From assembly GCA_002049455.2 (NCBI GenBank), contig KV918990.1:1-64000 (forward strand): 64,000 bases of DNA. Reading direction: 5' to 3'. Source of the DNA: Porphyra umbilicalis (lineage: Eukaryota > Rhodophyta > Bangiophyceae > Bangiales > Bangiaceae). Shown here in pieces: positions 1,309 through 23,249 of this stretch; the stretch's first letter is position 1, and each line of letters starts with the position of its first letter. Below the pieces are notes generated by a model. That model searched no databases, was not told the origin of the DNA, and saw nothing but the letters and a program-made list of their open reading frames with translations. The position numbers and the translations under genes were made by a program.

Positions 1309-2409
1309 GGGTGGGCAAGGCGTCAGAGGAGCGGCATCCGTCGCTGCAAGTAGACTGGGCACCGAGCTGCGTTGCCCCATTTTGGAGAAACATGATCATG
1401 TTTTTCGCCCAAAAATTGGTCTGGCACGCGACGCTTGCCCCTGCCTGTCACCCCCACAGCACTGCAGCAGTCGTATCGGCTCTGGAGCGGACGGCCGTGG
1501 AGCATGGCCATGCCGCTGTCCACACCACCCACCGGGCGATGAAGGCGAAGCCGGCCGTCATGATCACGGCCATCGAAGGCCCTCCACCCTTGCCGCCCGC
1601 CCGGCGAATTGGCACCAGACGTTCCCGTGCAACGGCCGGGGCCAGCCCTCTTCCGACAGCCGTCACGCAGAACCACAAGGCATCAAAGCACGCAGCTGCC
1701 ACAGGGACCAGACGGAGCACCTTGCCACACACGGCGAGGCTACTGGTCCAGACGTGCTTGCACGCACCCGTATGGCCCAGCGACCCTCGTGCCTCCCGCC
1801 ACGCCGCCAACGCTGTGGATCGTCGGCTTGGACAATAATGCCCATCCAAACCCCGATTTCGAGGGGGGCGGATGGCCCCATCCTCGGGGGGGTAAGACGG
1901 ACATTATTCGGCGTTCTCGATGGGGATGTGCGGATGGGAAAAGGATCCATCTGCCGATGGGGTTCCGGTCTCCTGACAATCGCGTGACCGAACAGAGCCG
2001 TGCATCGTGAGGGCGGTGGGACGGACGATCGTGCGGAGTTAATTCCGGCGCGCATGCTCTTGCGGCCGGAGGGAATGATGCTACTGCGGATGCAACTGGT
2101 TGCGCCGGCCAGCGGCATGCGCTGCGACTGCCATTATGATCATTTCTTTTTCTCTCTCCGAGGCGCTAGCGACTCGGCAGCTCTTAAGGATGCTCGGGTG
2201 TCCAGCCCAAGGCACATGAGCGCACGTCGAGAGACGATGGGAAACAGGCGCGAGCAAACAATCAATGAACCACGAAGAGGAGCGCGTACGCAGCACAAGA
2301 ACCAAGCGCGCCCGCGGCGCACAATCATCAGACCAACCCACACACTACAACAGAAATAGAAACCACGGCCATGGAAAACCACAGCGCCCTCCCCCGCGCA
2401 CCCGACTTC
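1309..2409. other. Gene-free stretch with CCATC/GATGGG cluster
   Basis: I see no convincing gene between the malectin gene and the next coding region. About 1838-1980 holds a cluster of CCATCC, GATGGG and CGATGGGG words. CAATAATGCCC near 1832 and GGACATTATT near 1898 form an imperfect inverted pair around the first part. The cluster resembles those at 12590-13262 and 23540-23660 and may mark the outer side of the transposon pair that starts at 2410. The rest is unremarkable. Confidence 0.4.
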
Positions 2410-4671
2410 CTACACCTCGTTCCCCGCTGTGAACTGCAAGTCAATGCCACCGCCGTCCTCCTCATCATCCTCGTCGTCCGAATCGGGAGCAAGGAGCTCT
2501 GCGTCGTTGCCGTCGTCCGGAGCCTGGGCGCCAAGCTCAAGCCCGGTCGACGACGCAGCCAGAAAACCGGCTCCATCCACGGCATCGGCATCGCCGCCGT
2601 TGTGCGCCTGAGAGTCCCCGTCGTCACTGAAGCCATCGTCCGTCCCGTCCTCTGCATTGGGCGCTGCATCAGCGTCGTCGCCATTGCTGGGGCCGCCGTC
2701 CTGCTGCATCGCCCCCCCCGCTGCAACCGGCACGTGAGCGGACACAACCTCCTCCGAAAAGGTGTGGGTGCGCCGGACGTCGGCGCCGTCAATCAGCAGG
2801 ATGCCATTCGCCGCGCGGTTGTGCAATGGGAAGGAGAGGTCGATGGCGTTCGTCTCATCACGCCACAGAGCGTGAAAAGTCTGCGAGTTGCCGTGGTGCC
2901 CGCTAGCGCGCTTGCCGGTACGCACCTCCAGGTGCCAGCGCACCGCCGCGCACACCAGGCTGACCTGACCAAGGACACAAGCAAGGTGCCCGTCCTCGCC
3001 GACGCTGTTGGCTGCCACGATACGACCTGTATGGCCCGTGCTCTTAAAAAACGCCTTCAACGCCACCTTGATGGCGCACTTGCCTTGCGTCGAGGTGCGG
3101 TACACGTTGCGGAGCAGCCACGCGCCAGCGTCGGCGGCGCCGAGGGTGCGCCAGTCCCGCTTCAAGGACGTAAAGTAGGCCTTAAGAACGACCTTGCGGT
3201 ACTTGTCCATCTTGTGCGGCACGCTGTTGGTGAACCAGGAGGACACCGTGCAGCTCTTAACGCTCGTTCCGGCGGAGGCGGGGAAGATCCGCGTGCTCAG
3301 CAGGTAGCTCTCGGCATCCTTGGCCCCCAGCTTCAACACGCTCTCGGCAGCCGAGCACATGAGCTCCCATGCCGCCAGCGTGTCGACGTACGCTTGGCGG
3401 GAAACAGTAGCCCCGCCGGAGTTGTCGTTGACTGCAGCCTCAAACGCAGAGCGCACGGCCTCCATGTCCCGCTTGTTGGACAAGGCAAGGTCCATCTTGG
3501 CCTTGGCGGACAGCTCTGCCGTCGTGCTGTTCTTGTTCTCCGCAAGTTGCGTCGTGGACGACGCAGCCAGCGTCGTGACCGATTTCATGGCTTTCTCAAT
3601 ACCGTTGTTGATCGCCGACTCAAACTTTGCCATCGACTGGGCCGCCACCTCGTCCCCTTCGCTTCGTCGGTCGACCCTGTCGTAGAGGTCGTCAAGGGTG
3701 CCGGTGATCGCAGCCACCTTCTTCTCCACGCGGTCCAGCCCCATCTGGAATGGCGAGATGCCGACCTTCACCGCCTCCATCACCTCCTTCTGCAGAGCGG
3801 TCTGGGGCTTCTTGCCAGACGGGCTCTTGCGCGTGGCAGTAGCCTTGCCTGCCGACTTGGAAGCCGCAGGCTGCGCTCGCTTGCCAAGGGCGGACGTGGC
3901 CGGGGTCTTGCGCTGCGCCGCGGTAGAGCGCGCGGCGGCACCGTTGACCTGCCTGCGGGGCGGCAGCTGCACCGTGTGGAAGAGCGAGCGCGACGGCGGG
4001 GATGCGAGTCTGGCACCAGGATTCGAAGAAAACGCAGGCGGCGCGGAGGCAGAGTAAGGGCTACTCATCGACTGTAAGGCAGTGCTGCCGACAGCACCAG
4101 CCCTCACCCCCGCGGGTGGCGGCACTTGAAGCGTGGCGGCACCGGCCGAAACGCGGAGACCGCGAGTCGTGTGGGACGGCGGGGGAGGCGTTGCCATCAC
4201 GCGTCGCGAGCCACTTGTGGCAAGCCCAGGAGCGTTGCAATGCTGGGAGGTCGCACCGATTGCGGGGCCCGTCGGACGCGCTGCCCCCACACGCGCGACC
4301 GGGCCACGCCCAGCTGCCGTGTTGGCGGGCAAAGGGGAGGGAGTTGTAGAGCCGGCCGTCGACGCTGCAGCCGCGGCGCCCACACGGCAAAGCGGGTGAA
4401 GGGCCTCGGCGTCGCCTTGAGTCGTCGGCAATGATACCAAAAGCTGCGGAGCAGCCGCTGGGGCAGCCCGCTCGGCACCATCCATCACAGCCGCGGCAGC
4501 GGCGAGCGCGCCAAGACCAGCGCCCGTGCTCTGGTCGGGAACAATTGCATCCAAAAGAAAACGGCGTGGCGGCGGCGGGGACCACAGAGCGCCGTAGTTG
4601 CCGTCATCAAGGCTGCCAGGAGGCGAGCCACGCGAACCCGGGTAGTTGGAATTCATGGCAGGGGGCAACAT
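2410..4671 (-). CDS. Unrecognised coiled-coil protein, accessory family member 1
   Basis: This is a single-exon gene of 753 aa. The order is: a Pro/Ala/Ser-rich low-complexity N-terminus, a Lys/Arg-rich segment (about residues 256-291, probable nuclear localisation), a predicted coiled coil (about 294-406), a conserved domain (about 406-631) and a long Asp/Glu-rich tail (about 661-746). The conserved domain aligns by eye with the proteins at 20734-23249 and 62555-64000. Shared features are a YF-x2-L segment, an alternating hydrophobic ALKAFF/ALAALF helix ending in RI, a GH motif, and a closing NG-[IL]-x-[LV]-x-DG motif. I know no named family with this signature. The ATG at 4803 is rejected because a TATA box lies almost on top of it; 4671 is the first ATG after the expected transcription start, and 4656 is a second choice. 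The gene lies head to head with the transposase at 6610-10705, suggesting an accessory role in that transposon. Confidence 0.65.
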   Translation of the reverse strand: MLPPAMNSNYPGSRGSPPGSLDDGNYGALWSPPPPRRFLLDAIVPDQSTGAGLGALAAAAAVMDGAERAAPAAAPQLLVSLPTTQGDAEALHPLCRVGAAAAASTAGSTTPSPLPANTAAGRGPVARVGAARPTGPAIGATSQHCNAPGLATSGSRRVMATPPPPSHTTRGLRVSAGAATLQVPPPAGVRAGAVGSTALQSMSSPYSASAPPAFSSNPGARLASPPSRSLFHTVQLPPRRQVNGAAARSTAAQRKTPATSALGKRAQPAASKSAGKATATRKSPSGKKPQTALQKEVMEAVKVGISPFQMGLDRVEKKVAAITGTLDDLYDRVDRRSEGDEVAAQSMAKFESAINNGIEKAMKSVTTLAASSTTQLAENKNSTTAELSAKAKMDLALSNKRDMEAVRSAFEAAVNDNSGGATVSRQAYVDTLAAWELMCSAAESVLKLGAKDAESYLLSTRIFPASAGTSVKSCTVSSWFTNSVPHKMDKYRKVVLKAYFTSLKRDWRTLGAADAGAWLLRNVYRTSTQGKCAIKVALKAFFKSTGHTGRIVAANSVGEDGHLACVLGQVSLVCAAVRWHLEVRTGKRASGHHGNSQTFHALWRDETNAIDLSFPLHNRAANGILLIDGADVRRTHTFSEEVVSAHVPVAAGGAMQQDGGPSNGDDADAAPNAEDGTDDGFSDDGDSQAHNGGDADAVDGAGFLAASSTGLELGAQAPDDGNDAELLAPDSDDEDDEEDGGGIDLQFTAGNEV

Positions 4672-4805
4672 GGGCGGGAAACAGGGAAGAGGGGCGGGGT
4701 GACGCTCTAGCACTGAGCGACGCTGTGCGAATGGCACGCGAGGGAGGCACGCGTTAGTGGGGATGATCCGGGCAGGGTCGCCGCTGTAGCCTCTACATTG
4801 CATCC

Positions 4806-4813
4806 CTTATATA
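4806..4813 (-). promoter_or_regulatory. TATA box of the 2410-4671 gene
   Basis: TATATAAG is read on the minus strand, followed by GGATGCAATG. With the usual spacing of about 30 bases, transcription would start near 4775-4785. That excludes the ATG at 4803 and supports the start at 4671 or 4656. Confidence 0.5.
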
Positions 4814-6609
4814 CGCGAAGCCGGCTGCCGTAGGGGTGGCCCTCCCCCAGTCCACTGCTCGCATGAGCGCGGGGGTGGGAGCAGGTGCCGTGGCCACGAG
4901 CCAGGAAAGCGCGCCAAGAGGTGGGGGAGCAAGAAAAAAGTGCCGTAACGGCGACCAAGAGAAAGGCGCCAAGCTCAACCGGCCGCAGAATACGCGCAAC
5001 CGCCGAAACGGTCAGGGAGCCGCCTGTCTGCACAGAGATCGCTGCCCGAGGTCAACACCACAGCAGTCCTATCGTGAGAGGGCCCAAGCAAATGTCCAAG
5101 CGGAGTGCTGCCGCAGGCGGTGTCTTGCCGATCCCCCTCTCCCCGCCCCACGCGGCTCTCCAGAACAGCACGCCATGCCTCGTTCGGACGCCAGTGACTT
5201 GGATCCCACAGGCTTCCGTTGTCAGGACGAGGCTCCCTCCTCTCTGGCGTCAGGAGACGTCTACGTGATGGCTCTCGGCACCGTGGGCGTCTGGTTTGGA
5301 CGCGCGGGGGACGGGGTCGTGGAAACTCGTCAAGGGTGCGACGAAGGCAACAGCCGTTGTGGGATCACCTCACGAGCCCTTCTGGCAGGGTGGCGCCACC
5401 GCGTGAATCAAGGGCTGACAATTGAGAAGTCCTCTCAGGGCCAGAAGCTTATGGGGTACATATCTGGATCTTACACAGAAGCGGCCAATGAAAACTCTCC
5501 ATCTTCGTTCTGACCCACTCACTGTCTGTCCTGACGGACGCCAAGCCAATAGATGACGATCTAAAGCCAGTCGATCTCTTCAGTTCCGAAGCTGGTACCG
5601 GCGCTTGCAACTGCTGATTGATCTGTTAAATCAGTGCACAGGTGGACAGCCGACCGGCTGCCAACCTTGGTGGGCCAGACTTGCAACGCTCCGAGTCGTC
5701 ATCGACCGTCTTCGGCCCCGCGCTCGCGGCAGCTGGTGGCGTCCGTGTCGCCTTTCTTCGCGGGACCGCCCCGCACCACACACGTGGACGATGTACAACT
5801 CTCTGGGCGTCACGTCGGTGTCCCCTATCGCAGGACGGGGCTCGACGGGTCGTGCCGTTGTGCCGCCCACGCACTGCCTCCTTTTGCTCAACCGAGAGAC
5901 CCCTTTGAGCGAAACGGTCGACTGGTGCGCTGTCCCTATCTCGGAGCTTGTTAGCGGGGGGCACTTGCAGGGTGCGCGGCACGCCATATGGCCGTTTGTC
6001 AGCGCCGACAGTTTCACACTGTGACTGTCGTCTCGGCATGAGGACTGCGAGGTGAGTGCTGTGGGCGTGGCTTCACCCGAGGCTGCACATTGACGTTTGG
6101 GTTGAGCCGCAGCACGGTGGCCCCCGCGCTCTCGACTACTGACTGTAACCGTTATCTTGACGTCTGGCAGGCTCGCTTCACGGACGCGTCGTTTTTACGA
6201 AACGCCCCGCGCGCACAACCACCAGCACCTCGAGGAGGCCACCCTAAGCGTCCGCACGCGCTCCCCCGAGCATCTCCCGCCAACACGGGACCGTGCTGCT
6301 GGTGCTTCCACGTAACTGACCCAGGCGAGCGCGACGAGGTGAGTGTGTGTTGTGGCTGACACTTGTGAGTTGCCAGCTTGCACTGAACATTTTCTGGTGC
6401 TTGGGCTGTCATCCCTTGACAACTCCTGTCTGGGAGCGGGTGTGGCGAGCGGGCTGAGGGGACCATGCGCTGGGTGGTATCATTCATAAGAGGGTGATGC
6501 ATGCTTTCCATCTGTCTGAAGACCCGTCAACCCGCCGCGGCGATTGCTAACACCTCCACGCATTGGTGTGGGTTTCTTCGCTGCCGCAGCGCACCCTACT
6601 ACGCCGGCC
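4814..6609. other. Divergent intergenic region between accessory gene and transposase A
   Basis: About 1.8 kb separates the two head-to-head genes. The longer open frames here have no recognisable domains and are not conserved in the equivalent 18.1-20.7 kb region. It presumably carries both promoters, with the transposase leader in its last part. Confidence 0.4.
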
Positions 6610-9600
6610 ATGGATCCCTCCACTCCCCCTTCTGGTCCTCCGCCTCCCCCCATCCCACCGCATCCACCACCACCGCCGCCACCTCATCAACCTTCGTCGC
6701 TACCCCTCGTGCAACAGTGCCGGCTGTGTGACTTTAGCACGACAGCGATAGGTGGGTTGAAGTGGCACATGATGCGCGGCCACAAGACGGTGAGGCACGA
6801 TGACGGCACGCGAAGGGAGGCGTACGATCGCTCTAGCAAGCGCTGGTGCCCAACTGGTGAACAGCGGCGAGGGGCCCACTCACATGGGGGCGGGACAAGC
6901 GAGGGCGATAGAGTACGCGGTGCTGATGGGACTGGAGGTGACGGGGCACATGATGCGCCAGGTCAGCGAGTAGCGGACCAGCGTGCTTTGTCATCCAGAC
7001 CCACGCACCAACCTGCGCCACGCCGCACTGAGCGCGGGCACTCTACGGGAGGCGGCAACGGACCCGTCACGCCATCCGACGATTACAACCGCCGCCTAGA
7101 AGCCGATTTAGTTGCTTTGCTGGAGTACTCGCGGCGCTCGCTGGGCGCCCCAGTAGAGCGGCAGGGCGGTACCATTGAGGCGCCCGGCGAGGTACACGAG
7201 GAGCAAGAGTACACGTACAAGACAGTGAGCACGACGATTCGCGCGCATTATGAGCGACTGCAGGACAACCAGCGGGCAACCCCGATGACCTTGCCCTCCA
7301 GGCGCAGGCGCAACATGCACACGAAGCGCGGCCAGTTCAATTCGTCCCGGCTGCGGGCGCTCGAGAATTACCTACTCACTGCCAACGGCCCTGGAATGTC
7401 GGAGGCCGGCATGGACAACTTTTTCAAGTTCATGAAGAAGTGGGAGAAGCCGCGCAAGGGTGGACGACGCCGCAAGAGAGTGGACGAGATTTTCAAGACG
7501 ACAAATGCACTCAAGACGGCGGTCAACGCCGATCTCGACGCGGCCATCAGCGATGAGGGGTGGCAGCAGTGCGAGTTTGAGGAGGGCGGCGTCCACTACG
7601 AGGCGTACTTTTTGCCCGTGCTCGACGTGATGCTTAAGCTGGTTCGGGAGGCCGAGGACGTCAAGTTTTGGAGCGGCACGGACGGGCCGGCCGGGTCGAC
7701 GGAGATGCGGGAGACCGCCATGGACGGCGACGTCTTCCGGCTCTTTGAGAAGGATGTCTGCAGCAATGGAGCGGACAAGTTTGTGCTCGGGTTTTATGTG
7801 TACAGCGACAGCCACGTGCTTTCTGGCTCGGGGGGTACGCGCTGCTTGCTGTTGTTTTTTCCACGGGGGAGATCATGAGCAGCTCAGTGCGATGAGGTGG
7901 GAGCGCGAGCGGTGGGGCGGCGACATGAAGATATCGACGCGGCGATGACAAGCGCTGACCAGTCCCGATCGTATCGCTGTACTGTTTACTGCTGTCCTCG
8001 CTACTTGTTGTTGTTATCTGCTCTTCCTTGTTGGCTCTGTTGTTGCACGGCCTCGCTCATTGACTGCTCCTCTCTTGCTCAGCTCACAAGCTTTATCCCG
8101 TTCGGATTCAAGTGATCAACGTCATCACCGACGAGCCGCAATGGGTCACCGTCGCATACGTGCCGGTCGTCAAGAAGATGACCGAGTCGGCAGCAGATGA
8201 GCGCGCCAAGCTTCGGCGCTGCGCCGTCCTGCAGCGCGTCCTGTACATGGCCTTCCGCTCGGTTGTGAACGCCAGTCACTCTGGTGTTACAATGTACGAC
8301 AAAGACAGCAAGCCGTTGACGGCCTTTCCGAGGCTGCTGCTGTACATCTCCGACCAGCCGGAGGAGAGAGCGGAATTTGCCTTCAAGCAGGGAATGTGCA
8401 GGCACCCATGTTCTCACTGCGACGTCGAGCTGGCGGACTGTGGGACGCCGCGGGCGGTCAACGCCAAAGACCGCAACGTGCTGCGGACGCTGCGGGACCA
8501 GGCCGAGGCCAATGGGCACCGTCGCTACTCGCGCCGGGCCGCGCGCCGCTTGGTACTCGAGGAGACGCACAGTATTACCGGGTTTTTGCCCGCAATTGCG
8601 TCGATGGCCGGCCTGAGCACGACCCCCCACCTGCTCTTCAGGACTATCGGATTTGACATTTTGCATGTACGTTTCTGTGGGTCGGTTCGTCCTTGTTTTG
8701 GTGTCGATTTTGGTATCAGATTCGACCGTCTCGTGCTGTGCTGCACCAGTTGGGGCTCTCACTGACACCTTTGGGTCTTCCATGTCGACGGGTTTCCCCT
8801 GCGTCCTTTCTCCTTGCCGCAGGTCCTGGACCTCGGTGTCACACGAGCGCTTGTGCGCCGTTTGGTGCAGGTCTTTCCGCATGTCTGCGCCGACTGCAGC
8901 CCCCTTCTTCGCGCACCCTCAGCCGTGTACCGGGTCGTCAACTCCCGGACTCGGGACCTCAACAGACGCAGTAAGGCGTCGCGTGCAGCTCCAGGGTACG
9001 TCGTTGCTTCCATCCGCGTGAGAGTGCCCCTCTTGGCGTATTTTGGGGGATGGTCACTGAAGAACGATGCTCATGCACCTGCACAGGTTTCTCACCAACG
9101 ATCTTTCTTGATGATGCCGATGGCTCCCCTCGCTATGTTTTCTTGCTCGTGTCGTGCTCGTTCTCCCCCACACACAGTTACATGGTCGGCCCCAAAGAGA
9201 AGCAACCTACATTTACCGGCAGGGAGCAGCGACGAGGAGTATACATCCTTCCGCTCGTTGTGCCCGGCGTTTTCAAGCTGCGCTGGCAGCCCCCCGCCCA
9301 GGGTCCCGACGTCGACCCGTCCGTTGTGGCTGGTGCTTTCCAGCGGGGGGCTGAGCAGGGCGCCGCGGTGGAGGAGCCCGCCGACGTGAGCGGCTACGAG
9401 GCCGACGACGACGAGACGGCGGCCGCGGTACAAAATGATTTCAACTTTGATTGGGCGGCCTATCACCGCGCGTTTGGCGACACGCCGTTTGACGAGGCCG
9501 TGACGGCCATGTTCGTCGCGTACGCCGCGCTGTACAAGCGTATGGCCGGATACGCTGGTGCCGTCTTCCCCAAAAAGATGACTCTGGCGGAGGCCGCGGC

Positions 9601-10705
9601 CATCCAGGAGCAGGCAACCTCTTTTGTCAACAACATGGTCACCCCGCTGCTGGGCCCCATCAACAGCACAAAAATTCACAGGCTTCTATGTCATGTGTTT
9701 GAGGCCATCCGCGACCACGGTAGCCTGCGAAACAGCAACACGGCTGTCAACGAGTGCAAACACAAGGAGGACAAGGCACACTACGTGCGCACCAACAAGG
9801 ATCCAAAGACATTCACGAGGCAGGTGGTCCGTCACGCGCAAGGCTCGCGCATTGTCAAGACGAGACTAGACCGCCACGACGAGGCGACTAAGGCGGCCAG
9901 GCGAGTTGCTCGCGCCGCCGCCGCTCCCGCTGCTGCCGCCTCTGACAGCGGCGGCAGATTCTTTTCTAGCGGAAGTGACACAAGCACCACCGATGAGAGC
10001 GGCTGTGACGGCGTGTCGACGGGCTCGAGCACGGACAGTGGTGACTCGTCCGATGGCGCTGCCAACAGGCTTCTGGGCGTCAGCGGCACGGCCGCTTCTG
10101 GCTCCCACCCGGCGCCACCGAAGCGGTTGTATCACCTTGACCGCACCACTGTGTCCGCCATCACTGCGAGGCCAGGCTTGGCGGGCGCCGCCACGCTGCT
10201 CCACATGGATCCTGACGCTGTGGTCAGGGTGACCAAGTCGATGACCATCGACGCGCGGTTTGACTGCGGCACCGTGTGCAAGCAGATTGTGCGTGGCACC
10301 CCGGACTACCGTGGAGCGCCTTGGTTCGATGCGGTATTATTCCATGCAGGCAAGAAGACCAGCCGCGTGCGCGCTGGAGAGGTGCGGGCACTAGTAAGAA
10401 AGCCAGAGGGAGACGTGGCGTTGGTTGTTGAGATGGTGCCGGCGGATGCAACGCAAGGCTGCCCGCTCGAGCGCCATGGCTGCTTATGGCTACGGTGGAA
10501 CGTTCCTGATGGGGCGGCGGAGTGTGTGGCACGACAAGTGCCTCTCCACCGCATCCGACGGCTAATTCATGTGGTCCCTGACTTCAAAGACCTCGCCGAG
10601 CGGCGGGGCTACGAGGCAAAGCCCGCGTCGCCGGAGTCACCACCACAAGACCGACGGGAGATGCGCTACTATTTGAATGCTTTGTATCCGTGGGACGCTT
10701 CTTGA
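6610..10705 (+). CDS. Plavaka/KDZ-like (CACTA-related) transposase, copy A, four exons
   Basis: Exons are 6610-7834, 8083-8666, 8823-8995 and 9178-10705, giving 1,169 aa. Donors are GTACGC, GTACGT and GTACGT and each acceptor ends in AG; the joins keep the frame. The start sits in GCCATGG. The protein begins with a proline run and a C2H2 finger (C-x2-C-x12-H-x4-H). The exon 1/2 join gives a YSDS...YPVRIQVINV block, then AYVPV, an FPRLLLY-SDQPEE block and a C-x4-C-x2-C-like CRHPCSHC. A DILH motif follows at the exon 2/3 join, then a STKIHRLL-H...NE-KH block like the downstream part of CACTA transposases. This order matches Plavaka-type transposases (established family knowledge), but the distance is large. 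Acidic and Ser-rich inserts fill exon 4. The frame is intact and the copy could be active. It faces the accessory gene at 2410-4671. Confidence 0.65.
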
Positions 10706-10897
10706 TTTGGTCTATTCGATGCTTTCTGTTTATTGTTCTAGTTGCACTTGTTCTCCGTCTTCCAGTTCATTCCTGCTTCGCGGTTCTTTCAGCGCAGTGC
10801 CATGTCCCATGTCTTGGCCTCAGAAAGATGTTTGACCGATTGAGCGCGCTGCATGCAGCTTCGTGCACAACCATCGATGCTCGTCAGGGCGGCCATT

Positions 10898-11649
10898 GTG
10901 TTTGACGACACCATACGCCTGCTGTCGGTCGTTCGTCGGCCATCGGGGGTGCGTCACGAGCCTCTCCGTCGTTCTTCTGGCCGGCGCCGGTGGGGGCATC
11001 GGCCCTGGCGACAAAGGTGGCGGCGGCGCTTTTGACACCTTTGCCTCGGCGTCACTCGACTACACGGTGCAGTTGTGGGATGGGTCGTCCACGTCCCCGC
11101 GGGCCCTCGTGCGGGACGTGCGCGGGCGCTCGTTCGTAACGTACGACCCGTCGGAGGCGATCCTCGCCACCGCCCACCCCGACATGCATCCAAGATGGGG
11201 GGACCCCCTCACCGTCGTGCGGCTGTTCGATGAGCGCAAGGCAGACGCGGGGCCTTTTTTCACGTTGACGGTGCGGGAGTAGGGCGGTGGAGCCGCCGCC
11301 GCGGCTGCCACCCAACAGCCCGTGGCAGCGGGGACGACCGTCTCGCTCGGCACCGCCGTGCCGTTGCAAGGGGCGGAGGGCGCCCCCACACGCCGGCCCC
11401 CGCGGAACCGCGACGAGCTCGACGCGCCAGGCGTGCGGGCGATGGCGTTTTTGCCCGACGGACGGTCGCTGCTCCTTGGCACCCTGACGGGGGTGGTGCC
11501 CCTCGACGCGTTTTCGGGAGTCGTCTTGCAGACGCTCAGCGGCACCACCGAAGGCACCGCCGAGCGGTTTACGACGGATGCGTGGCGAGTGCTGCTCAGC
11601 TCGGCGTCGGGGGACGTGCGCGTGTCGTCGGTGGGGCGCCGACGTATTG
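10898..11649 (+). pseudogene. WDR82/Swd2-like WD40 gene fragment, frameshifted and with an internal stop
   Basis: The fragment starts with DDTIRLLSV in one frame and continues in another with a FVGHRG-VTSL blade, LDYTVQLWD, then VVRLFDERKADAGPF. After a TAG at 11280-11282 the same frame continues with an alanine-rich insert, VRAMAFLPDGRSLLLGT and PLDAFSGVVLQTLSG. The order and spacing match the middle blades of WDR82/Swd2, a Set1/COMPASS and transcription-termination subunit (known family). The N-terminal blades and the last blade are missing. The fragment ends at a GTACGT that may be an old splice donor. The frameshift near 10930, the stop and the missing ends argue for a non-functional copy. 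It lies just downstream of transposase A and may be a captured host-gene fragment. Confidence 0.55.
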
Positions 11650-14027
11650 GTACGTGGGGGGGGAGGGGGAGAGCGGGGCGCGGCGGCCCTGGGAAGAATC
11701 GGTGGGGGGCGGGGGGAACCGCTGAAGCTGGCGGATGTTTAGATGGCAGGAGCTATCGCCATGGGAGGGTGGGCGGTCACGGAGGGGTGCCACGAAGCAG
11801 CTGTGGCGGGACGTGTGTCCGCCGCGGCGGGACGCCCCGTTGCCGTGTGGGTGCGGGGGGTCGACGACTTACCATGTGCCTTTCTTTTGCTCGCTGGCCG
11901 GCGGACCTAATCATGCGGGCCGCCACGGCTGCGTGGATGGCGGTAGGCGGCACAGTGGAACCCCAAGTTTGCCATGATGGCGTCGACGTGCCAAGATGTG
12001 GTGTTTTGTGCCGTCAAGCCCGAGGACGTGCGGTGACCAGCCGGCGACTCAATAGACGTGTGTGGCTGAGCCTTTGGAAAAGGCGCAAGGCTCACCGGCT
12101 TCCGCGCGGGTGGCTACCCGAGAGACGTATCCGCTGTGCCCCATGCTCATGCCTCCTGGGCCAGTGCGGCGCGCTTACGACACAGTCGTAGGAGCCGCCG
12201 AACGCGCCCGAAGACCTTGCAGAGGGTCCGACTCTCCGCCGTACGCCCGAGTCGCACTGGGAGCGACCATGATGCCCACAGAGCGGCCTCGAGCACACTT
12301 TTTCTTGAGCCCAGCGTGGGGTCACGACGAACTGCGCGAAACAGAGATGATGGCATTGGCACACTCGTCAGACATTGCTCCACCACTTCGCACTTTCCAA
12401 GGACTTCGCTCCAGCGAAGCGCCCAATTGCGACGCGGACAGTTGACGGTCTGCCTTTCCACAGCGCCGTCCCGAAGACATCCAATCAACACCGGCATCGT
12501 CAGATACCACACGATACCACCCGCGGCTCACAGCCGTTTCTGAGCTCGAGACCACTTCTAAGCCCGCGCAGCGTGGTGACTTTTCCCCCATCCGACGACG
12601 GCTCAGATGGGATGTTCGATGGTCTGGAATCGCCCATCGGTGTGCCATCCAAACGGCGTTTGGATGGGGGATGGGCCTCGATGGGTATTGGATCGCGATT
12701 TTGTCCTTGCCGACGATCAGGCGCGCAGATGCGGCGGCAGACCGCCGCCCAAGCGGTCCCCCGCCACGACGCAACGGCGCCGCCGCGGGCGCCCGCCCAC
12801 GGGGCACCCACCGCCGCGCAGGGGGCCGCACCCCCACCCGGTCCGCCGCGGCCACCACCGCGCGGCCGCCACGGCGGTCGGCGCGCGGATCCCCCTCACC
12901 ACCCCCTTGCCCCCCCCCCCCCCCCCCCCCCCACCGCGCCGCCGCGTGGCGCCGCGCCGCTGCCACCGCGCGCGGGCGGATCGGCAACGGGGTCCCGCTG
13001 CCCCGACGCGACTCGCACCGCAGGCGCGACGGCGCGCCGGCGCGCCGGCCGGCATGCCACGGCGGCAGAGGCCGGCCGGCATGCCACGGCGGCATCGTCT
13101 GCCTTTGTGCACACCCCATCGGTTTTCCATCGAATCTGGCTGATGCGCATCAGGCCCATCAAACACAACTTTCGATGGGCCCTGCGATGCGCATCCTGGC
13201 CCGCATCGCACCCATCGAACCGATGGAAGACTGAATTAACCCGCTCGATGGGGTTATTCGAGGAAAGGGGGCTACTGCCCAAGAGCCACCGACAGGGGCG
13301 CTCCCAGAGAGGGCAGAGGCGTCTTGCGCCTCGCGTGACTCGTGGCACGTTCCGTTGACGACTCAGGGACGTCTCGCCCGTGCAACGTCACCCAATCAGC
13401 GGCCGGGGTTGTCTCGGGAGTGCACGAAGCCCGGAAGGCGAGGCGGGTGGGGGGCGCCCTCGCTGTGCAGCCCAGCGCGGGTGCCTCCGCCCCCGCGAGC
13501 AACTGCCGCCACCACTACCACCACTGACGGCGGCCACCACCGCGACCTCCGTCGACGTCCGCCACCGCCACTCCCGCCGACTTCGGCCGCCACCGCCATT
13601 TCCGCCGACGACGGCCACCACCGCCGCCCCCGTCGAGGGCGGCCACCCCCCACCGCCACCAGTGCGGGAGGCAATCGCCGCCACCACCCGGGCACACCGC
13701 CGCCACTACAATGGCTGCAGTCGACGACAGCCAGTGCGGCGACCCCCACCGACGACCGACACCACCGTCACGACGGCGGCCGCGACGCAGCCTCGTAGGC
13801 TCCACGGCGCACTCTCGCGGCTGCCGCCTCCCCCACCCCCAGCTCTGCTGCCGCTCACGTGCGGCCCCTCGGTGGATTCCACACGAGGCCGCCGTCACCC
13901 GCTTCTGTGCCCACTGCTTCTCCTCGTGCCATCTGCAGTCGCCCTGTGACAGCTGGAGTCGTTACCTGTCCGTGCGGCCGCAGGATGTAGGCTGCAGAGT
14001 GTGGACGGAAAATAAAGAAAGAACAGT
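11650..14027. other. Gene-free GC-rich spacer between the two transposases
   Basis: No gene is supported here. The open frames on both strands arise from proline/arginine-coding GC-rich simple sequence, notably at 12720-13080 and 13500-13880. The stretch includes the CCATCG-flanked repeat annotated at 12590-13262 and a 23-base C run near 12909-12931. Confidence 0.4.
12590..13262. repeat. Dispersed repeat with CCATCG/CGATGGG clusters at both ends
   Basis: Both ends (about 12590-12700 and 13110-13262) are packed with CCATCG, GATGGG and GATGCGCATC words around a GC-rich core. Part of the core and the right end recur in inverted orientation at about 23540-23760: CGGCATCGTCTGC at 13090-13105 against GCAGACGATGCCG at 23672, and GGCAGAGGCCGGCC in both. 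The layout is that of a miniature or non-autonomous element, or of subterminal repeats of the neighbouring two-gene elements. Confidence 0.5.
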
Positions 14028-17000
14028 TTATGGCCAAGGATAAAAAGCATTGACAAAGAAGCGCTGGGCGCGCCTGTGGATGGGAGTGTCGGGCACAGTC
14101 TTAGGCGTCGCGGCAATACCATGGTCCCGAGTAATCTGGTCCTGGTCGGGCACCACGTGCTCAATGCGCAAGACCGATGACAACGGGATAGCGTGCAGGG
14201 CCGGCCACTCGTCGCCCACCTCCATTGACCAGCACAGCCGCTTTCAACCGCCCTCAACCAGAGGGCAGCCCGGCATGGACTCGCAAACGTCCATGGCCGC
14301 AATAATCAAGACGTCAACGTCGTCGTCTGCGGCCTTTCGGACGATGGCACGGGCCTCTCCGTACCGCAAAGCGCCAGGGCCGTCGCCTGGCAGGGTGTAT
14401 GCGAGGCAGTCAAACCAGGGAAAGCCGCGGTACACCGGGGTGGCGCGGAGGTGCTGCTGTGGGTGGCCACCTGCACAGCAGGGGAACCGTGGGGAAAACG
14501 TGAAAGAGTTTGGGAGCTGCAGGATGGTGGTCTCCAGGGGTAGCGCCAAGGCGGCGCCGACAGCACCGAGCCCCGGCCGGGCCGACAGCTCCGCCACGGT
14601 CACCGAAGGAGACCGACGCCTTGGGCGTCGCCCGACCGGCCCTGTGACAGGAACGTCCGTCGTGCGCGCGAGCACCCCCACCGCCGAGGCCACGTCCGAG
14701 TCGCCATCGGCGTCAAACCAGTCGTCAAACTCATCGGCCTCGCGCTCGAACCGCGCCCGGATCTCGAGCGACCCCTGCCCGATGTGGAGCAGCTGCCCGC
14801 GGAAGGTGTCCTCCTCACCGTTGGTGCGCCCGTACCGACGCTTCTCGTGCCCATGGAGGGACTCGTTGCATCCCGTGTCGCCGTTCTTGATGGCGCCGTG
14901 CAACATGATGGCCTCGAGCACGTGAGCGAGCAGCTTGTGCACTTTCGTGCTGAAGAACCTGCCAAGAATGGGGGTCAGAAAGTCGAGGACGAACGATCGC
15001 GCCAAGGCGGCCACCTCTTCCGCCTCCGTCACTGACATGGGCTGTTGGCAGTGATAGGTGCCGGTGAGGCGGTGTACCAGCTGCGCGTAGCGCACGAACA
15101 ATTGAGTGACGGCCACATCGTAGGGAGTGTTCCCAAACTTGGCCAGGTACGCGCCCCAGTCGAAGTTCAGGTTCTTGGAGACGCACTTGAAGTCATCGCT
15201 CGTCGACGCCGTGCCGGCTGGCGCGTCGTCCTCCCCGCCGACCGACCCGTCGGCTTGGGTGGATTGGTCGAGCTCCACCTCTGTCCCGGGGTCACTGCCA
15301 CTATCGCCATCGGTGCTCACCTCGCTGTCCCGGCCGCCGCCACAACCGTCCAGGTCCTGGCCGTCCAAATCCAGCAAGGACGCCACGATGTTGTTGACTT
15401 CGTCCATGGGGTCTTTGGCCGGCAGCTCGCCCGTAGTCGTAGCGTCCGCTCCAGGAAGGGTCGAGCCTCCTGTCGAAGGTGGGGGCGAGGGGATGGCGGA
15501 GGGTGTTGAAGGGGGAGCGGCAGAGCGCCGGCTGCGGCGAGCGGCAGACGGTCGTGTGGGCCTGAAAGGAGCAGAGTCCTGCTTGGCCTTCTTCTTGGGT
15601 GGCGGCCGCCGCCTAGTGCTTGGCCGAAACAGCCCAGCTACGAGGAACATAAGAATCCAAACGCCCGCCCTCTGTTGATCACCAGTGAAGGTTGCCTGTT
15701 TCTCCTTTGGGCCAACGAGGTACCTGCAGGGGAAGGGGCAAAGATGGCGCGCGGTGATCATGAGAAAGAAGGGTAGCAGACAACATCAGAGAGGTGCGCT
15801 GCTACTGAACTGTGAGTATTGAGTGACTAACGGCTCCAACCAAGAGAAGAAAGCCAGAATCAAAGACAAGAGCGGTGAACAGACGTACCCAGGAGAGATA
15901 AAAGGCGCCAGGCTACGTCGACCGAGGAACTCTGTGCGCACATTGCCGGCACGGGCAGTGGCACTCTCGTCCTTGTACTCGGGATAAAAAGCTTTGCAAA
16001 CGTGTGGGAAAATAAGTATCAGTCGGTGACACATCATTCGGGTGATCCCCAAGTCGAGCACCTGCACCAAGCAACCAGCGACTGAAGAAAGGCGAATGAG
16101 CAAGTCAGTACCAGAAAAACGGCAATGAGGGGAAGCAGCGCGCACCGGGTACACCAGCATAGCCCACACACTGCAGGGAACAAGACCATATTCTCACTGC
16201 CAAACATAACGTACGTGCAAAGGGTCAATGGCAATCATCTTGTACAGGTGGTGAGGCACGGTGCCGAGTCCACCAAGCGACGCGAGTGCAGGAACAAAGG
16301 CGTTGATTGTGCTCTCCATCTCTAGCATGACACGGCGCTTCCGTGCCCTTGTTGTGCGGCCGAGCTTGGCCGCCTCCAGGTGCCGCGTGAGTGTCTGCAC
16401 CACATCACGCGGGGCCGCGGTCACACCCTTCTCCGAGCAGGCATCCTCGGCCTGCACCTCGCACGTCGAGCAGCACTTTCCAAAGTTGCCTGCCTTCATG
16501 CACAATATCGCCCGCTCCTCGGGCCGGTCGCACGCGTACAGGAGCACCCGCAAAAACGCCAGCTTGTAACCGCCGATGCTCTCGTCCAGGACGTGGCCGC
16601 TGTGGCTAGCGGCGATGGCCTCTATGAAGGCGAGGTAGAGGGTGCGCTGTAGGACGCCCCAGCGCCGCCCCGTTGCTTTCGCCCTGCTGCCGGGCTCCTT
16701 AAGCGTGCGCACAATGGGCACGTACGCAATGGTCAACAAGCAGACAACCCCCGAGACGTCATTGAAGACTCGGATGCGAATAGGGTACAGGTAGTGCGCT
16801 TGAAAGAGGTAACACAGGGAAAGAGAGAAGGCGAATAGTCGGGGGGATGCGGTTAGAAGGAGACCAAGCACATGAATGTTGCGCGACGCGCGTGCATGGG
16901 GACGCACGGAAGCGAGTAAACATGCCAAGCGAATGCAAGCAGGGCAGAGGAGTGTGCACGTACCACCTGACCAGGAGATCAGGCTTGCATCGCTGTACAC

Positions 17001-18098
17001 GTACAGGCCGAGCACAAAGGCCTTCTGAAAAGTCGTGGCATCAATGGCGTCTTGGTGCGCCTTGAATGCCTCGCCATCCATGGGCGCTTGGCGCCGGCGG
17101 CCGACCTCGCTGTTGTCGCGGCGCAACTGCACCTCCTTGGCGTTTCGCAACGCATCCAGCGCGGTCTTGAGCACCGAGCGGAAGTATGTCACGTACGACA
17201 CCCCCCCCTGCACCAGCGTGCACCTCTTCCAGCCCGCCGACAATATGGCGTCGTCCAGGTCGTCGTGGACGGCGTTGCGAAACGCCGTCGCTGAGGAGAA
17301 GACGTCCCCAATGCGGTTGGTGCCGCTGGCGACCGACTTGCCTCCGCCGTCCGACCCGTCCCACTTGGCCAGCACGTCATACAAACGCGTTTGGAAGGCC
17401 GTCGACAATCCGCTGCCGTTGCACTCGTTCACGAACACCTGCAACATCTTGAGCGCCGGCGTGTTGAACTGGCCCGGGTTGCAATTAGGGCGCGAGTTCA
17501 CGGCCGGCTCGCACCGCTGGGCGTCGCCAATGCGTTCATACTCCGCTTGCGCCTCCGCGGCCACCGATGAGAAGTTGCGCGATAGGACGGCGGCTCCTAC
17601 CGTCGCCCGCCCACTCAGCGGCGGCTTGCCCCCATCGCCAAGCTCCTCCTGGGACGCGCGAACCTCGGCGGCCTTGGAAAGCTGCAGCAGCAGCGCCGCG
17701 TCGTCCGGGTCGCACTTCTCCGAGTCGCCAAAGACAACGTCGTCGGGATCCACAGCTACCCCAGGGGCAACCGGCGAGGTATCCACTCCCAGCTCCGCGT
17801 GCAGCACGCCTTGGAGGACAAGTGGCGCAAGCGGCGGCAAGATCGCGTCAGTGACCGGCTGGGGCGAAGACCCGGGTGATGTTCCAGGTGGTGCGTGTGC
17901 AGTCCCGCTGGTCGACGTCGCGCCAGCCGCAACAGCACCACCACGGGCGGGGTCGAGCCCTATCTGCCGGGGCACTCGACGGTTGGCGTTTCGGCCGAGT
18001 CTTGGACGAGCGGAGAGCGTGTGCCTCCGCATCGCCGCCGTGTTGCCCTTGTTCACGCCGCACACGTGGCATTTCGACGGCCCGTACGTCGGTCGCAT
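14028..18098 (-). pseudogene. Plavaka/KDZ-like (CACTA-related) transposase, copy B, in-frame TGA in last exon
   Basis: Exons on the minus strand are 18098-16964, 16798-16215, 16061-15889 and 15723-14028, with GTACGT donors. Exons 2 and 3 are exactly as long as in copy A (584 and 173 bases), and all three intron positions and phases match. The start is the ATG before RPTYGPSKCHVCG. The finger-like N-terminus keeps C-x2-C and one His but lacks a clear second His. Matching blocks include LYVYSDAS, YLYPIRIRVFND, AYVPIV, the DRPEERA block, DPLHV, VLDLGITR, VGPKEKQATFTG and TKVHKLLAH...NESLHGHEK. A TGA at 14244-14246 stops the frame about 70 residues early, yet the homologous tail continues in the same frame to FVNAFYPWP at 14031. 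This suggests a recent single nonsense change. The shortened protein might still function; I call it a probable pseudogene. It faces the gene at 20734-23249. Confidence 0.6.
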
Positions 18099-20733
18099 CG
18101 TCAGGATGGTGGTTGTGGGGAGGAAGCAGCGGACGGCGGGCAGGCATGGGGGCGCCCGCCGTTGCTCCGCCCGCAGGGTGCCGCACCTCCGCCTTGGCCG
18201 CCAGTAGCGCGTGGCGTAACGACGCCCCGCCAAAAAGGTTCTCGTCCACGACGCTGTCCTGCAGGAGTTGAGAAGGAAAAAGTGACCGGGGACAGACGGC
18301 CGCACCGTGCAGCTCAAGGGTGGAACTCGACGATATGGGGAGCAAGTGAGAGGCACGAGGGGTCAGTAGCAGCTCACTTGGGCGTAAGAGAACGAAGAGA
18401 GCGGCACCGGTCATGCGATGGCCATAAGATGGCGTCCGTCCGTCTATCGCGGCTCATCAAAGCGTAGGTGACAGGAGCACAGCATATGAAAAGACACGGA
18501 GACGGACAGAATGGTGCTTACCGTCGCTGGCAACGAGGCGCCGCGCTTGACGCTGGCGCTCACACCTCACGTCTCCCGTCGGCAGTCGGCGGCCACAAGT
18601 CCGAGTGGTGGGAGCCACAGCTAAGGGGCGGGTCAGGTGACGGGTCCAGTTGCCCACGTACGCCCGCAGAGGGTGAGCCAATGCACGCGCCCGGGTACGC
18701 CTGGCGGGGGGGCAGGCGGCACGGACCCGTCTGGCGCGTGCGGTGGGTAGGCGGGGGGAAGGGGACTCGGTCGCACGGGCCTCTGTCGTGTGAAAGACGA
18801 AGGCCGCCAGACGGACAGCCGAAGAACGGCAGTCGGCCAGCCACCGAACAGCCCTGGGGCGCTCACCACACTGCGACTCGCGACGGCACGCCGGTCTGGT
18901 TGTCCCTCTGAAGGCTTCAGAGTGGACCAGAGATCGAAGTCGGTGGCTGTGCGGCTCAATGACGCTGGTCCCAAAAATGCTCGGATTGTGAGGCCAGCTT
19001 TGGCAGGCAACTCCTGCCACACAATCAGATCACAGTCCAAGCCTTGTGATCTCCGCGAAATACTTCATTCTTTCATTCCAAATACATTACAGCGTTTGCA
19101 AGAAACCAATAGAAACGCGCAGGAGCGCGCTGAAAGCCTGACTTGTGTGTCAATTGCAGGCCCCACCAAGGGTATCAGTTTTGGCGACGAGTACGGTACT
19201 CGGCTCTGATCCAACCACTGAGTATTGGCTGACAGTCCGAATGACTTTCAGCCGTTCGAGTAGGAGTATCTCCCAAACCTGACAGAGCGGGTATTGAGGG
19301 TATATACCCGCCACATTTTGGGCTGTCGGTATCCAATTTTGTTATCAGCGCGGGTATGCGTATACCTTTCGCTGGAACTAAATTCCAGATCCTGCAGTTA
19401 GCAATTGATTTTGGGACGTATTTATTTGGTTTCGTGACTTACTTTTTTGGCAGGCGGCTCACGTGGTCACGGCGCCGCACTGCAGGACGCTGTCAAGGGT
19501 ATCGGCTTCTGCAGAATTGAGAATACGAGTAGTTCTCTCGGATACCCTTGGTGATTTGATGTTGCGAGTATCTGACCACGTCCCATTCGCGAGTATGAGT
19601 ATGGGCGACGCGTCGAAATATCTCACGAGTACGAGTATATACCCGAAAAAAATACTCGGGTGATACCCTTGACGAAATACTCTTGGTGAGGTCTGGTCAA
19701 TTGTATAGTGGATCCCGTATTGTTACATCCCCGACTGGGGACAATGAAAGCTCTGGACCTGTGGCCTAGAATTGGTGCGGGCATTGAGCAAAAGATCCGC
19801 GGGCTCGAGCCTCGCGATCTACAGGCTTGGCCGTTGTCACCGTCGCAAGCTGCGAGCTCGGCGGTCTTCGCCGTTTCCCACCGCTCCTGCGCTTGCTGCG
19901 CTTGCTGCGGTCCGTCTCGGGTCTTGCCGTCCTCCTCCACTTTTGTGAGGTGAAGCGGGCAGCGTGTTGTTTTCCCACGAGCCTGAGGCACCGCCACAAT
20001 GCGGTGGCGCACGCACCGGGGCCGTTCCTCAGCCATCGGCGGGGCATCGAGATCCATCAGGCGTGACCTCCCCCCTGGCCCCCGGCGCTGCGATACTGGT
20101 ACGTCTGGCTGCTCTTCTCTCTCTCTCAGGCACAATTGAGCCCCGCACCGGCCGGAGCACGTAGGCCCTTGTTTTGGGCTCATCCGGGTAACCTTGTTTC
20201 TTCGTGTGTTTCTGACCCCACCTCCGTTTCGCCTCCGAAGCATCCTGCAGTACGACCTGCGTGGTGCCTGCCCCCCCCCCCTGTCCCCTCGGCAGACTGT
20301 AAGTCATTGGGCATCGGGCCCATCATTTCCTTGCAGCCCTTTGGGTGGTGGCCGCTGGCTCCTCATGTTGCCATTGAGGGACCCGCGGGTGGTCGGCCAC
20401 GCGCGCGGCGACCGGTGGCGCTCGTTCTTGTGGGTAAGCTCCATCTTCGATTGCGTCTGAGGCTGAAGTCTTGTTTTTTTTCTCCACCGTGTGGGTGTTG
20501 GGCGGGGATGTGCGGTCGACACTGTCGTACCTGCGGGCCAGCACAACTGCGACCACTGTCTGCGCGTTCGCTGTATTTCTACAAGAGCGCACGGTCAACG
20601 CCGTTCACACCCGGTCGCTTTTTCTCACCGCAATACGCTTTTCGCCTGCGCTCCCTCCTTCCCGTGACCCCCCGACCTCCTGGTACTCCTCCTTTTCTGC
20701 CCCCCCCGGTGTTGACAACTTCCCTTCGCCGCA
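18099..20733. other. Divergent intergenic region between transposase B and its partner gene
   Basis: This is the counterpart of 4814-6609 but longer, partly because of the AT-rich insertion at 19167-19671. No open frame here has a recognisable domain. The part just before 20734 is pyrimidine-rich and may be promoter and leader of the accessory gene. Confidence 0.4.
19167..19671. mobile_element. AT-rich miniature inverted-repeat element
   Basis: The left end reads CAAGGGTATCA (19167-19177) and the right end TGATACCCTTG (19661-19671), a perfect 11-bp terminal inverted repeat. The dinucleotide AC directly precedes the left end and follows the right end, possibly a short target duplication. Inside, a second CAAGGGTATC...GATACCCTTG pair lies at about 19493-19553, and GAGTA/TACTC and GGGTATATACCC words recur throughout. 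Base composition is far more AT-rich than the surroundings. No coding capacity is seen. The superfamily is not identifiable from the ends alone. Confidence 0.55.
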
Positions 20734-23249
20734 ATGGCGCCGTCCGCCGCCGACCGCGCCCGCAAGATGGAGATGCGGCAGGAGGCCGCTGCTGTGGCGG
20801 CCGCCACGTCGGCAGCCATCGCCGCGGCCACTGCCCTCGTCGCTTCGTCGACGGACAGAAGCCAAGAAAATAACGACACGGCAACGCGAGACGCGGCGAG
20901 CACTATGCTGGATCTTTCTACGAGCGACGCGCCCGCGAAGGTCGGGTCCGGGAACGCGGCGGCGCCGGCCGCCTCCCAGGTGACGCCACGGACACGCGGC
21001 AAGGGCAAGGGCAAGGGGCGAGCCAGTCACTTGGGCCCATCTTTTGCCATTGCCAAGACGAGCCGGTCGGCCACCCCGTCACCTGTCGGGGTGATGTCGG
21101 CCGGTTTGGAGGCAACACCAAGCTCTAATGCGACGCCAATGGCGTCGCGGCCGCCCGCGTACCTCTTGGCCACGGCTCCTCAATTTGTTGGCCAGGCCAC
21201 GACCCCGTACGCGCATCGTCCGCGCGTGACGCCGCTGTACTCGAGCACGGCCACGCCGCAGGCAGTTCCGAACTCGACGACGCCTACTGACAACATGGCG
21301 GAGGCAGCCGCCGCGACGGCGGCTGAAGGCCCGCTGGGCGCGCGGAGAGCCACGGAGGCCGGCTTTGTCGTCCGCACGTCGCCAAACGTGGGGGCGGTCG
21401 CCGCTAGCCATGTGGCGCGCACCAAGGGCGCGATTTCGGGGGCCTCTCCGGTGGTCGCGGGCGTCCGCCACCGGACGCACCGCATCCCGGCGGCGCGCCT
21501 TGCGCGCCAGCTGAAGGCAGCTGAAGCAACGGCCGCCGCCAACCGTCTCAACCTGGCGGGCGACACAGCCGACAGCAGCTTTAAGAGCTCGAGCGACTCC
21601 ACGGCGGTACCGGCCGCGGGTCTTGGGCTGAATTCGACTTCGCTGGCCGCAGCCGCCTCTGCCGCCCAAGTGTCGCGCGCGCCAGCCTCTGGCATGGCCA
21701 CGGGCGACAGGATGGAAGTTGACAAGGCCACCAACGTCATTGGTGATGCCGGTGCCGGAGGCGCCAACGAGTCTTTTTTGGGCGTCGCCGCCGGGGGGGG
21801 GGCGCCCGGTAGCGGTCCCTCGACAGCAGCAGACCCGCCGACGGCTTCGGCTGGCTGGGTTGACACTATGTCGGCGGCCGACGTGAGTGACGCTAGGTCG
21901 GCCCCCCCTTCGACTCCTGGGGCGCCCTCTGCCGGGGGCTCTACCGGTGGAGTCTCAACTCCTGGGCCGAGCGACATTGAGTCGGGCTCCCCGTCTCCGT
22001 CGCGCCCGCTGATGTGGCGGTCGACGCGCGCAATCCCCTCCCCGTCATACAGATCACGCTGTCGACGACGCCGCCTGCTCCTGCTGTTCCGAACGCCGAA
22101 CTGGGTCATTCGGCGACGCGGGCGACCCAGGTCGTTGAGACCGCCGTCCGTGCGTCCACCGCCAACTTGCGCGTCGATGTGGCCGCGCTGTGCGCACGCA
22201 CTAAGGACACGGCCGCTCGGCTCCAGTAGCTCGTGACCAAAGTCGAAGCGTCGGTCAACCTCTCGCAGCAGACGCTCGTTGCGGTCCGCAAGGTTGAGGC
22301 GGTCTTCAAGGCGGCCATCTCGGATGTCATCAAGAAGGGTAACTTTCCAGAGAAGGACGATGCCGACACTGCAGAGCAGCAGGCGGAGAATCTGCTGGAG
22401 GATGTCAAGGTGCGTTTGATACTGTGCACGCTCTACATTGGATACTTGGGTTTGTGCTTGAGTATGGTCGTGTTACTGACTGCCCCCGCCCTTGGTTTTG
22501 TGCTGTTCTATCCCCAATCCTTGCTCTTTTTCTGCATCTCGCAGAAGGCGTACCGTGGAATCCTTGTCAACGAGTTTGCGACGGCTGTCGAGACGGTGGC
22601 GGTGTTCTCGAACTGCGACGACACCTGGGACACGGTCATCGACGCTGCGGAGGCGTGCATGAAGTCGGGCAAGGTCAAGGCGGAGGCGTGGCTCAACCAG
22701 TTCATCCGCCGCGCCAGCTGGCGAAACGCCTCCATCTCCGTCAACGTACGTGTGTCGATGCTCGTCTTGCGCGTGAAGCCGCACTTGCACCAGGCCTGGA
22801 ACGATCTCATCGTCAACACTTACTTTGAGGCACTGGGGCTGCAGGTCAAGAACCTAAATGAGGCGACGGCCAAGCAGCTGATAGACGGCTCCGCCTACTA
22901 CGTGTCGGTGCGTGGGCGCGAGGCGTGCCTCGACGCGCTGGCCGCTCTCTTCCGCGCCGTAGGCGCTGCCAACCGTATCTCCGAGCCGGCAAGCCCCACC
23001 GACGGGCGTGTCACACGCGCCACCCTTGGGCACTTTGCATTCGTCACCACCAAGATCCGCAACGTCGTGGAGCTCGCCGCCGGTACGCGCGCGTCGTCCC
23101 GTGACGGCGCCGTCGGCGACGGCCACTTTCCCATGTGGGTCGCCGAGGTGCGCCGCATGGATGACAGCTTCCCTAAGAGCTGTGAGGCGCTCAACGGCCT
23201 CGAGCTGATTGACGGTGCTGTACTGGAGCGAAGCCTGCCGCAGTACTAG
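20734..23249 (+). pseudogene. Accessory family member 2, frame disrupted near 22 kb
   Basis: The start is GCAATGGCG at 20734. A long Ala/Ser/Thr/Pro-rich N-terminal region runs in one frame to about 22000. The downstream coiled-coil segment (DVAALCARTKDTAARLQ, then VTKVEASVNLSQQTL) is in another frame, and a TAG at 22227-22229 sits inside it. A 135-base GTGCGT...GCAG intron (22410-22544) follows, then the conserved domain to 23249: WNDLIVNTYFEAL, a REACLDALAALFRAVGAANRI helix, a GHFPMWVAE block and NGLELIDG. These match the proteins at 2410-4671 and 62555-64000. The frameshift and stop could also be an unrecognised intron near 22000-22230, so the gene may be less damaged than it looks. It stands head to head with transposase B. 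Confidence 0.55.

Follow-up and report, generated by a model that had tools for sequence, protein, structure and literature searches.

The window analyzed here, a stretch of 64,000 nucleotides of Porphyra umbilicalis DNA, contains two transposase genes that each face a gene of a second protein family. This arrangement raises the question whether the two genes form one mobile unit and what the second protein, here called the accessory, may contribute to it. The search covered one genome (83.8 Mb, 665 contigs), in which the window is C230:1-64000. Twelve element loci were read, namely ten genomic loci and the elements A and B of the window, and all other gene pairs are known by position alone.

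Both transposase genes consist of four exons:

6610..7834, plus strand: transposase A exon 1, with the first catalytic D in YVYSD
8083..8666, plus strand: transposase A exon 2, with the Plavaka domain and the SDQPEE and C(2)C motifs
8823..8995, plus strand: transposase A exon 3
9178..10705, plus strand: transposase A exon 4, with H(4)H and the final E
16964..18098, minus strand (18098-16964): transposase B exon 1
16215..16798, minus strand: transposase B exon 2
15889..16061, minus strand: transposase B exon 3
14028..15723, minus strand: transposase B exon 4, with the only in-frame stop of this gene at about 14245, close to the C-terminus

The exons of transposase A splice into one intact open frame of 1169 aa. 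The middle exons measure 584 and 173 nt in both genes and the proteins share 40% identity across 496 aa (E 2e-111), in agreement with the first-pass annotation, which had called A and B homologous with middle exons of equal length. It had also labeled them Plavaka/KDZ-like, and of this label the first half stood: Pfam Plavaka (PF18759) matched exon 2 of A with 36.5 bits (cut-off 26.3) and B with 25.4 bits, just under the cut-off. The second half fell, since PF18758 (KDZ) matched neither A nor B at E values up to 10 and the window was absent from the 28 KDZ (Kyakuja, Dileera, Zisupton) matches in the genome, so that membership in KDZ was ruled out. Elsewhere in the genome KDZ transposases are present, with 19 of the 28 matches over the Pfam cut-off (e.g. 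C104:129742-129993). Near the N-terminus of transposase A, a C2H2 zinc-finger match remained below the cut-off. According to PMC12730594, Plavaka is grouped with EnSpm, Mirage, Chapaev and Transib, and its hallmarks are C(2)C and H(3-4)H motifs between the second D and E and a target duplication of 2-3 bp. In 9/9 elements compared, the transposase carries D, D, C(2)C and H(4)H, the second catalytic D being assigned by our own reading of the alignment, and the final E is present in 8/9, with the C235 transposase frameshifted at this position.

The genes facing the transposases are the following:

2410..4671, minus strand: accessory gene A, a single intact ORF of 753 aa
20734..23249, plus strand: accessory gene B, with a broken frame and the conserved domain at about 22551-23246

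The start codons of accessory and transposase are 1.9 kb apart in A and 2.6 kb in B, head-to-head in both. The accessories proved homologous in a two-sequence comparison (204 aa, 30% identity, E 5e-17), and thus the window indeed holds the same divergent pair twice in mirror orientation, as first proposed. The frame of accessory B changes, perhaps in part through introns, and is interrupted by an in-frame stop near 22230. Within the lineage, accessory frames comprise about 750-1100 codons. The N-terminus of accessory A is rich in Ala and Pro, and a K/R-rich stretch (20%) is present as well; in the conserved domain (about aa 400-640) basic residues outnumber acidic ones, and the acidic tail has neither K nor R. 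When the domain was aligned from eight copies, 18 columns were invariant, and six of the seven other copies are merely 21-29% identical to the window copy.

The initial impression of an unrecognized family was borne out by the searches made. Pfam scans gave no significant match for both window accessories and nothing below 0.02 for the eight domain members, including no match to Myb/SANT in the domain and none to TET/JBP in either set, and the best hit of a domain profile against PDB sequences was not significant (E 0.64). AlphaFold predicted long helices for accessory A from its single sequence, at low confidence (mean pLDDT 39), and these helices are the one feature in line with the coiled coil named in the first-pass annotation. 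With both window copies aligned as input, the mean pLDDT was 46, and a Foldseek search with this second model gave no match below E 3.4; both models are too poor to indicate a fold. Our literature search found no description of the accessory-transposase pair or of Plavaka two-gene elements of red algae.

If the two genes move together, a single pair of terminal inverted repeats (TIRs) should enclose both. Such TIRs were sought as ATCGTC...GACGAT pairs that lie 0.3-16 kb apart and are identical in at least 66% of 24 nt, a scan that yielded these limits in the window:

1819..12717, plus strand: element A, a two-gene transposon of 10,899 bp including the flanking ATs (element proper 1821-12715), based on the TIR pair and an empty site
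1819..1846, plus strand: TIR of element A on the accessory side, with subterminal CCATC repeats next to it
12690..12717, minus strand: TIR of element A on the transposase side
13094..23682, minus strand: element B, a decayed two-gene transposon of 10,589 bp including one AT on each side, based on the TIR pair
13094..13121, plus strand: TIR of element B on the transposase side
23655..23682, minus strand: TIR of element B on the accessory side

The terminal match is weaker in A (18/24 bases) and B (17/24) than in the other elements. None of 3000 shuffles of regions outside the genes reached it, a count for which the regions were picked with the termini already known and in which most shuffles simply lacked the hexamer. 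In a first inverted-repeat scan of the window, where the GC content is 58-77% per 2 kb, the B termini ranked fourth among GC-rich noise and the A termini were not listed. Across the loci read, one TIR pair encloses accessory and transposase in 9/12 (C393, C550, C93, C235, C537, C366, C3 and window A and B), so the termini include the accessory gene, a point on which the pairing idea could be checked. Of the other three, C575 starts at a contig end, C227 lacks the left part and the accessory, and a single terminus was found in C106. Gene order is constant, running from a terminus through the accessory (minus), the intergenic region and the transposase (plus) to the second terminus. Between the two genes, repeats were seen at C393:18964-19407 and C93:31120-31479, with self-like match offsets of about 145 and 102 bp, respectively.

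Alternatively, the accessory gene might have termini of its own, the unit being a composite. This would fit the 25/96 accessory loci without a transposase within 10 kb among the matches listed. In the nine elements, the scan returned no ATCGTC pair around the accessory alone, and among the twelve loci read no accessory-only insertion with an empty site of its own was seen. The scan did return two weak pairs (0.67), one at 21215-28191 that starts inside accessory B and one in C537, both of which we take for chance. Moreover, a transposase query of higher sensitivity supplied divergent partners for 14 orphan accessories, raising the count from 55 to 69 of the 92 loci then known, so some remaining orphans may likewise have missed partners, and others lie at contig edges (C69:8, C277:966). 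We therefore regard a composite origin as very remote.

Whole-length copies and empty sites address mobility directly. The copies C393/C550 and C93/C235 are 99% identical over 10-11 kb including both genes and lie at different sites. A 99% match to the right flank of the C550 element was noticed at C7:315854-315956; the C7 and C550 copies may be a segmental duplicate or alleles and not two insertions, and the same may apply to C93/C575 and C227/C537. Shorter elements of 2.1-2.8 kb with the same ATCGTC ends (C93:22096-24898, C93:35915-38000 and C227:101406-103907) are perhaps non-autonomous relatives. When the joined flanks of the nine elements were searched in the genome, a match across the join was obtained for 2/9. 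At C42:231301-231854, a paralogous empty site of element A is continuous and contains a single AT (1030 columns, 73% identity), and for the C93 element a paralogous empty site with one AT lies on the same contig as the element (83%). The C42 sequence also matches the flanks of element B, which is absent there, at a junction that is not clean, as the alignment crosses low-complexity DNA. The nested 2.8 kb element C93:22096-24898, which has the same kind of ends, is absent from C235, where one AT is left.

Flanks alone had given inconsistent duplications, and those of the other elements showed no consistent repeat beyond AT; it was the empty sites that revealed AT as part of the target. Since empty sites contain one AT and filled sites two, the duplication is the 2-bp AT, the element ends are 5'-CGTC..GACG, and the element moves as one unit. 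Elements A and B are accordingly two separate insertions, 376 bp apart. The alternative that unrelated repeats became neighbors by nesting or chance clustering could appeal to the nested insertion in C93, which documents such events in this genome. It is refuted by the empty sites, which lack both genes, along with the TIRs around both genes and the 99% identical whole-length copies, and retains practically no probability. Hence the original suggestion that the two genes move together can be upheld, and we consider it almost certain that transposase and accessory are co-mobile.

How regularly the two genes occur together was assessed by position across the genome. Searches with the C-terminal part of the accessories of window A, C393 and C3 gave 78, 93 and 95 matches, which merged into 96 loci, and three transposase searches, in which 123 of 169, 89 of 559 and 150 of 311 first-look candidates were scored, merged into at least 209 loci. 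Left out of the counts were 16/123 rows of one transposase search, which are exon-3 pieces of loci already listed, and 64/95 of the C3-query matches (overlaps judged by eye); rerunning the pairing counts with every dropped row put back left the result unchanged. Taking the nearest neighbor among the matches listed, 69/96 accessory loci have a head-to-head Plavaka transposase within 10 kb, two have one in tandem and 25 have none. That the accessory family should mostly sit beside a transposase is thus supported by 71/96 loci. The earlier set of 92 loci likewise contained 69 divergent pairs. The gap between the core matches of divergent pairs is 3.0-8.1 kb (median 4.8 kb). Under uniform placement, a null that ignores transposon clustering, a divergent neighbor within 10 kb is expected for 1.2% of loci, and together with the empty sites this excludes chance adjacency of the two genes. 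An orientation test of 69/71 divergent pairs against 1 in 4 expected gave 4e-39, a value computed over related copies that are not independent.

Pairing is unevenly distributed among transposases. We split the matches of the third transposase search, 150 scored of 311 first-look candidates, at 127 bits, a threshold of our own choosing. Among the matches listed, at least 127 bits were reached by 82 clade transposases, of which 65 have a divergent accessory and 17 have none, and the third accessory query (C3) found a partner for 0/17 of the latter. Among the 68 lower-scoring Plavaka matches listed, two were divergent, both of them partial (42-51% identity), one was in tandem and 65 lacked an accessory. 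The 97 Pfam-Plavaka loci outside the second transposase set included two divergent and one tandem accessory, and none of the 28 KDZ matches had an accessory within 10 kb. Given 65/82 in the clade versus few among lower-scoring Plavaka and 0/28 for KDZ, the pair is a property of one Plavaka clade. The contig of the window carries further Plavaka transposases at C230:108335-109033 and C230:68120-69460 with no accessory within 10 kb.

Co-mobility by itself would also be expected if the accessory were a host gene captured early and kept by hitch-hiking as a passenger without a role. Capture seems to occur in these elements, since element A contains another gene fragment between transposase and terminus:

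10920..11624, plus strand: WD40-like gene fragment inside element A, with one stop

Copies of this fragment are 72-75% identical at C332:347-1050 and 42% identical on C25, and it is probably a captured piece of a host gene and a passenger. We take it to resemble Swd2/WDR82. The 17/82 clade transposases without detectable accessory among the matches listed would be compatible with a dispensable passenger as well, and so would the near-identical element pairs, in which constraint on the accessory was not shown: with too few changes, accessory dN/dS was 0.60 (C93/C235), 0.69 (C3/C106) and 1.13 (C537/C366), the changes between C393 and C550 were exclusively non-synonymous, and C93/C575 had none. 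The most informative comparison, C537 vs C3 over 365 codons, argues against a passenger with dN/dS values of 0.345 for the accessory and 0.108 for the transposase. C366 vs C106 gave 0.329 and 0.122, respectively, for the same two families and hence not independently, and C393 vs C93 gave 0.61 and 0.19 at saturated dS. A single orientation in 69/71 pairs and the 18 invariant columns, retained over eight copies despite 21-29% identity of six, also speak against it, and we consider a roleless accessory improbable.

The two genes also diverged in parallel. Distances of transposase exon 2, which differs by up to 58% among the 11 elements compared, and of the accessory domain were correlated with a Mantel r of 0.987 (p 2e-4) over these 11 elements, some of which are near-identical, and of 0.91 (p 0.0014) over six representative elements.

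A hint at the function of the accessory comes from the element ends. In the outer 500 bp, CATCGA occurs 11-13 times per kb vs 0.66-1.03 inside in C393, C550, C537, C366 and C3, and 7 vs 0.42 times per kb in element B. In C93 and C235, CATCCAAA takes this position (10 per kb at the ends vs 0 inside). Enrichment of 7-13 vs 0-1.03 per kb was thus found in 8/9 elements, with motifs chosen from the same data in which the densities were counted; element A shows it with CCCATC instead (12 vs 0.71), its CATCGA reaching merely 3 vs 1.2 per kb. We considered whether accessory and end motif covary and abandoned the idea, because the motif does not track the accessory tree: C393 has CATCGA and C93 has CATCCAAA, yet the accessories of these two are nearer to one another than either is to the C537 accessory.

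Dense subterminal repeats recall En/Spm, where TNPA binds subterminal repeats and both TNPA and TNPD are required, and where TNPA-like proteins of different CACTA elements have little sequence in common (both according to PMC2613891). Shared features are a transposase of a related clade, two element-encoded proteins and dense subterminal repeats at both ends. In En/Spm, however, TnpD and TnpA arise by alternative splicing of one transcript, whereas the red-algal pair are separate divergent genes, and a 3-bp duplication and CACTA terminus there contrast with an AT duplication and no CACTA terminus here. The comparison with TnpA covers architecture and subterminal repeats. In the Nuwa group of Harbinger, a transposase and a Myb/SANT protein are encoded in one element (PMC12730594), similarly placing a second conserved protein beside the transposase, but that transposase family is unrelated and the accessory domain lacks a Myb/SANT match.

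By analogy, the transposase would recognize the terminal repeats and cut, and the accessory would bind the dense subterminal CATCGA or CATCCAAA repeats via its conserved domain, multimerize and bring the two element ends together. Bound at its own ends or in the shared intergenic region, it might also regulate expression, as TnpA does beside TnpD. From architecture, subterminal repeats, conservation and precedent, we find it reasonably likely that the accessory is an end-binding cofactor. The broader reading, a Plavaka cut-and-paste lineage of a red alga with two divergent genes in one TIR set, about 750-1100 codons in the accessory frame, a four-exon DDE transposase and the accessory as transposition partner, appears probable.

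A different role is suggested by Plavaka itself. Some fungal PlavakaB elements contain TET/JBP genes (PMC12730594), which are thought to counter silencing or DNA modification, and the accessory could, while co-mobile, similarly counteract host silencing or DNA modification outside the cut-and-paste reaction. The existence of Plavaka elements with such an extra gene and the faster evolution of the accessory (dN/dS 0.345 vs 0.108) are in line with this. Yet neither TET/JBP nor any other enzyme domain was found in the accessory with Pfam and PDB sequences. According to PMC12730594, fungal Plavaka families exist with and without TET/JBP, unlike this clade, where 65/82 members among the matches listed have the accessory and exon 2 is up to 58% divergent among 11 transposases. 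An anti-silencing role is consequently unlikely, although clearly more plausible than a passenger, and the transposition partner remains our preferred interpretation.

The elements share with Plavaka the transposase domain, D-D-E with C(2)C and H(4)H, the 2-bp duplication and, for some Plavaka, an additional gene. Plavaka termini are given as TGT..ACA (PlavakaA) or CATCA..TGATG (PlavakaB) in PMC12730594, and the red-algal CGTC..GACG (ATCGTC with the flanking AT) fits neither, so that the Plavaka assignment rests on the transposase. The second gene is of an unrecognized family instead of TET/JBP, and the host is a red alga instead of a fungus. On balance, we lean towards a distinct red-algal Plavaka lineage with CGTC..GACG termini and AT target that depends on an undescribed end-binding cofactor family, encoded by a separate divergent gene, co-evolving and independently evolved to be 'TnpA-like'. 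Why some CACTA-like transposases require an additional protein of low conservation is best understood in plants; about 70 natural divergent pairs with clear subterminal repeats in one genome provide a set for testing the co-evolution of cofactor and end motif, and the definition of the accessory family can be used for annotating red-algal genomes.

Several further features were noted. In the window, an ORF at 25186-26412 (minus) contains a GCR1_C domain over the cut-off, a domain known from Crypton elements, and an ORF at 38259-40991 (minus) contains a hAT C-terminal dimerization domain. An alpha/beta hydrolase domain and an enolase C-terminal-like domain are joined in one ORF at 51598-53937 (plus), possibly a fusion of the MenH-MenC type as in PHYLLO. 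Across the genome, in keeping with a red alga, the phycobilisome linker domain PF00427 had 12 matches, four of them on C665, a plastid-like contig, and eight on seven other contigs.
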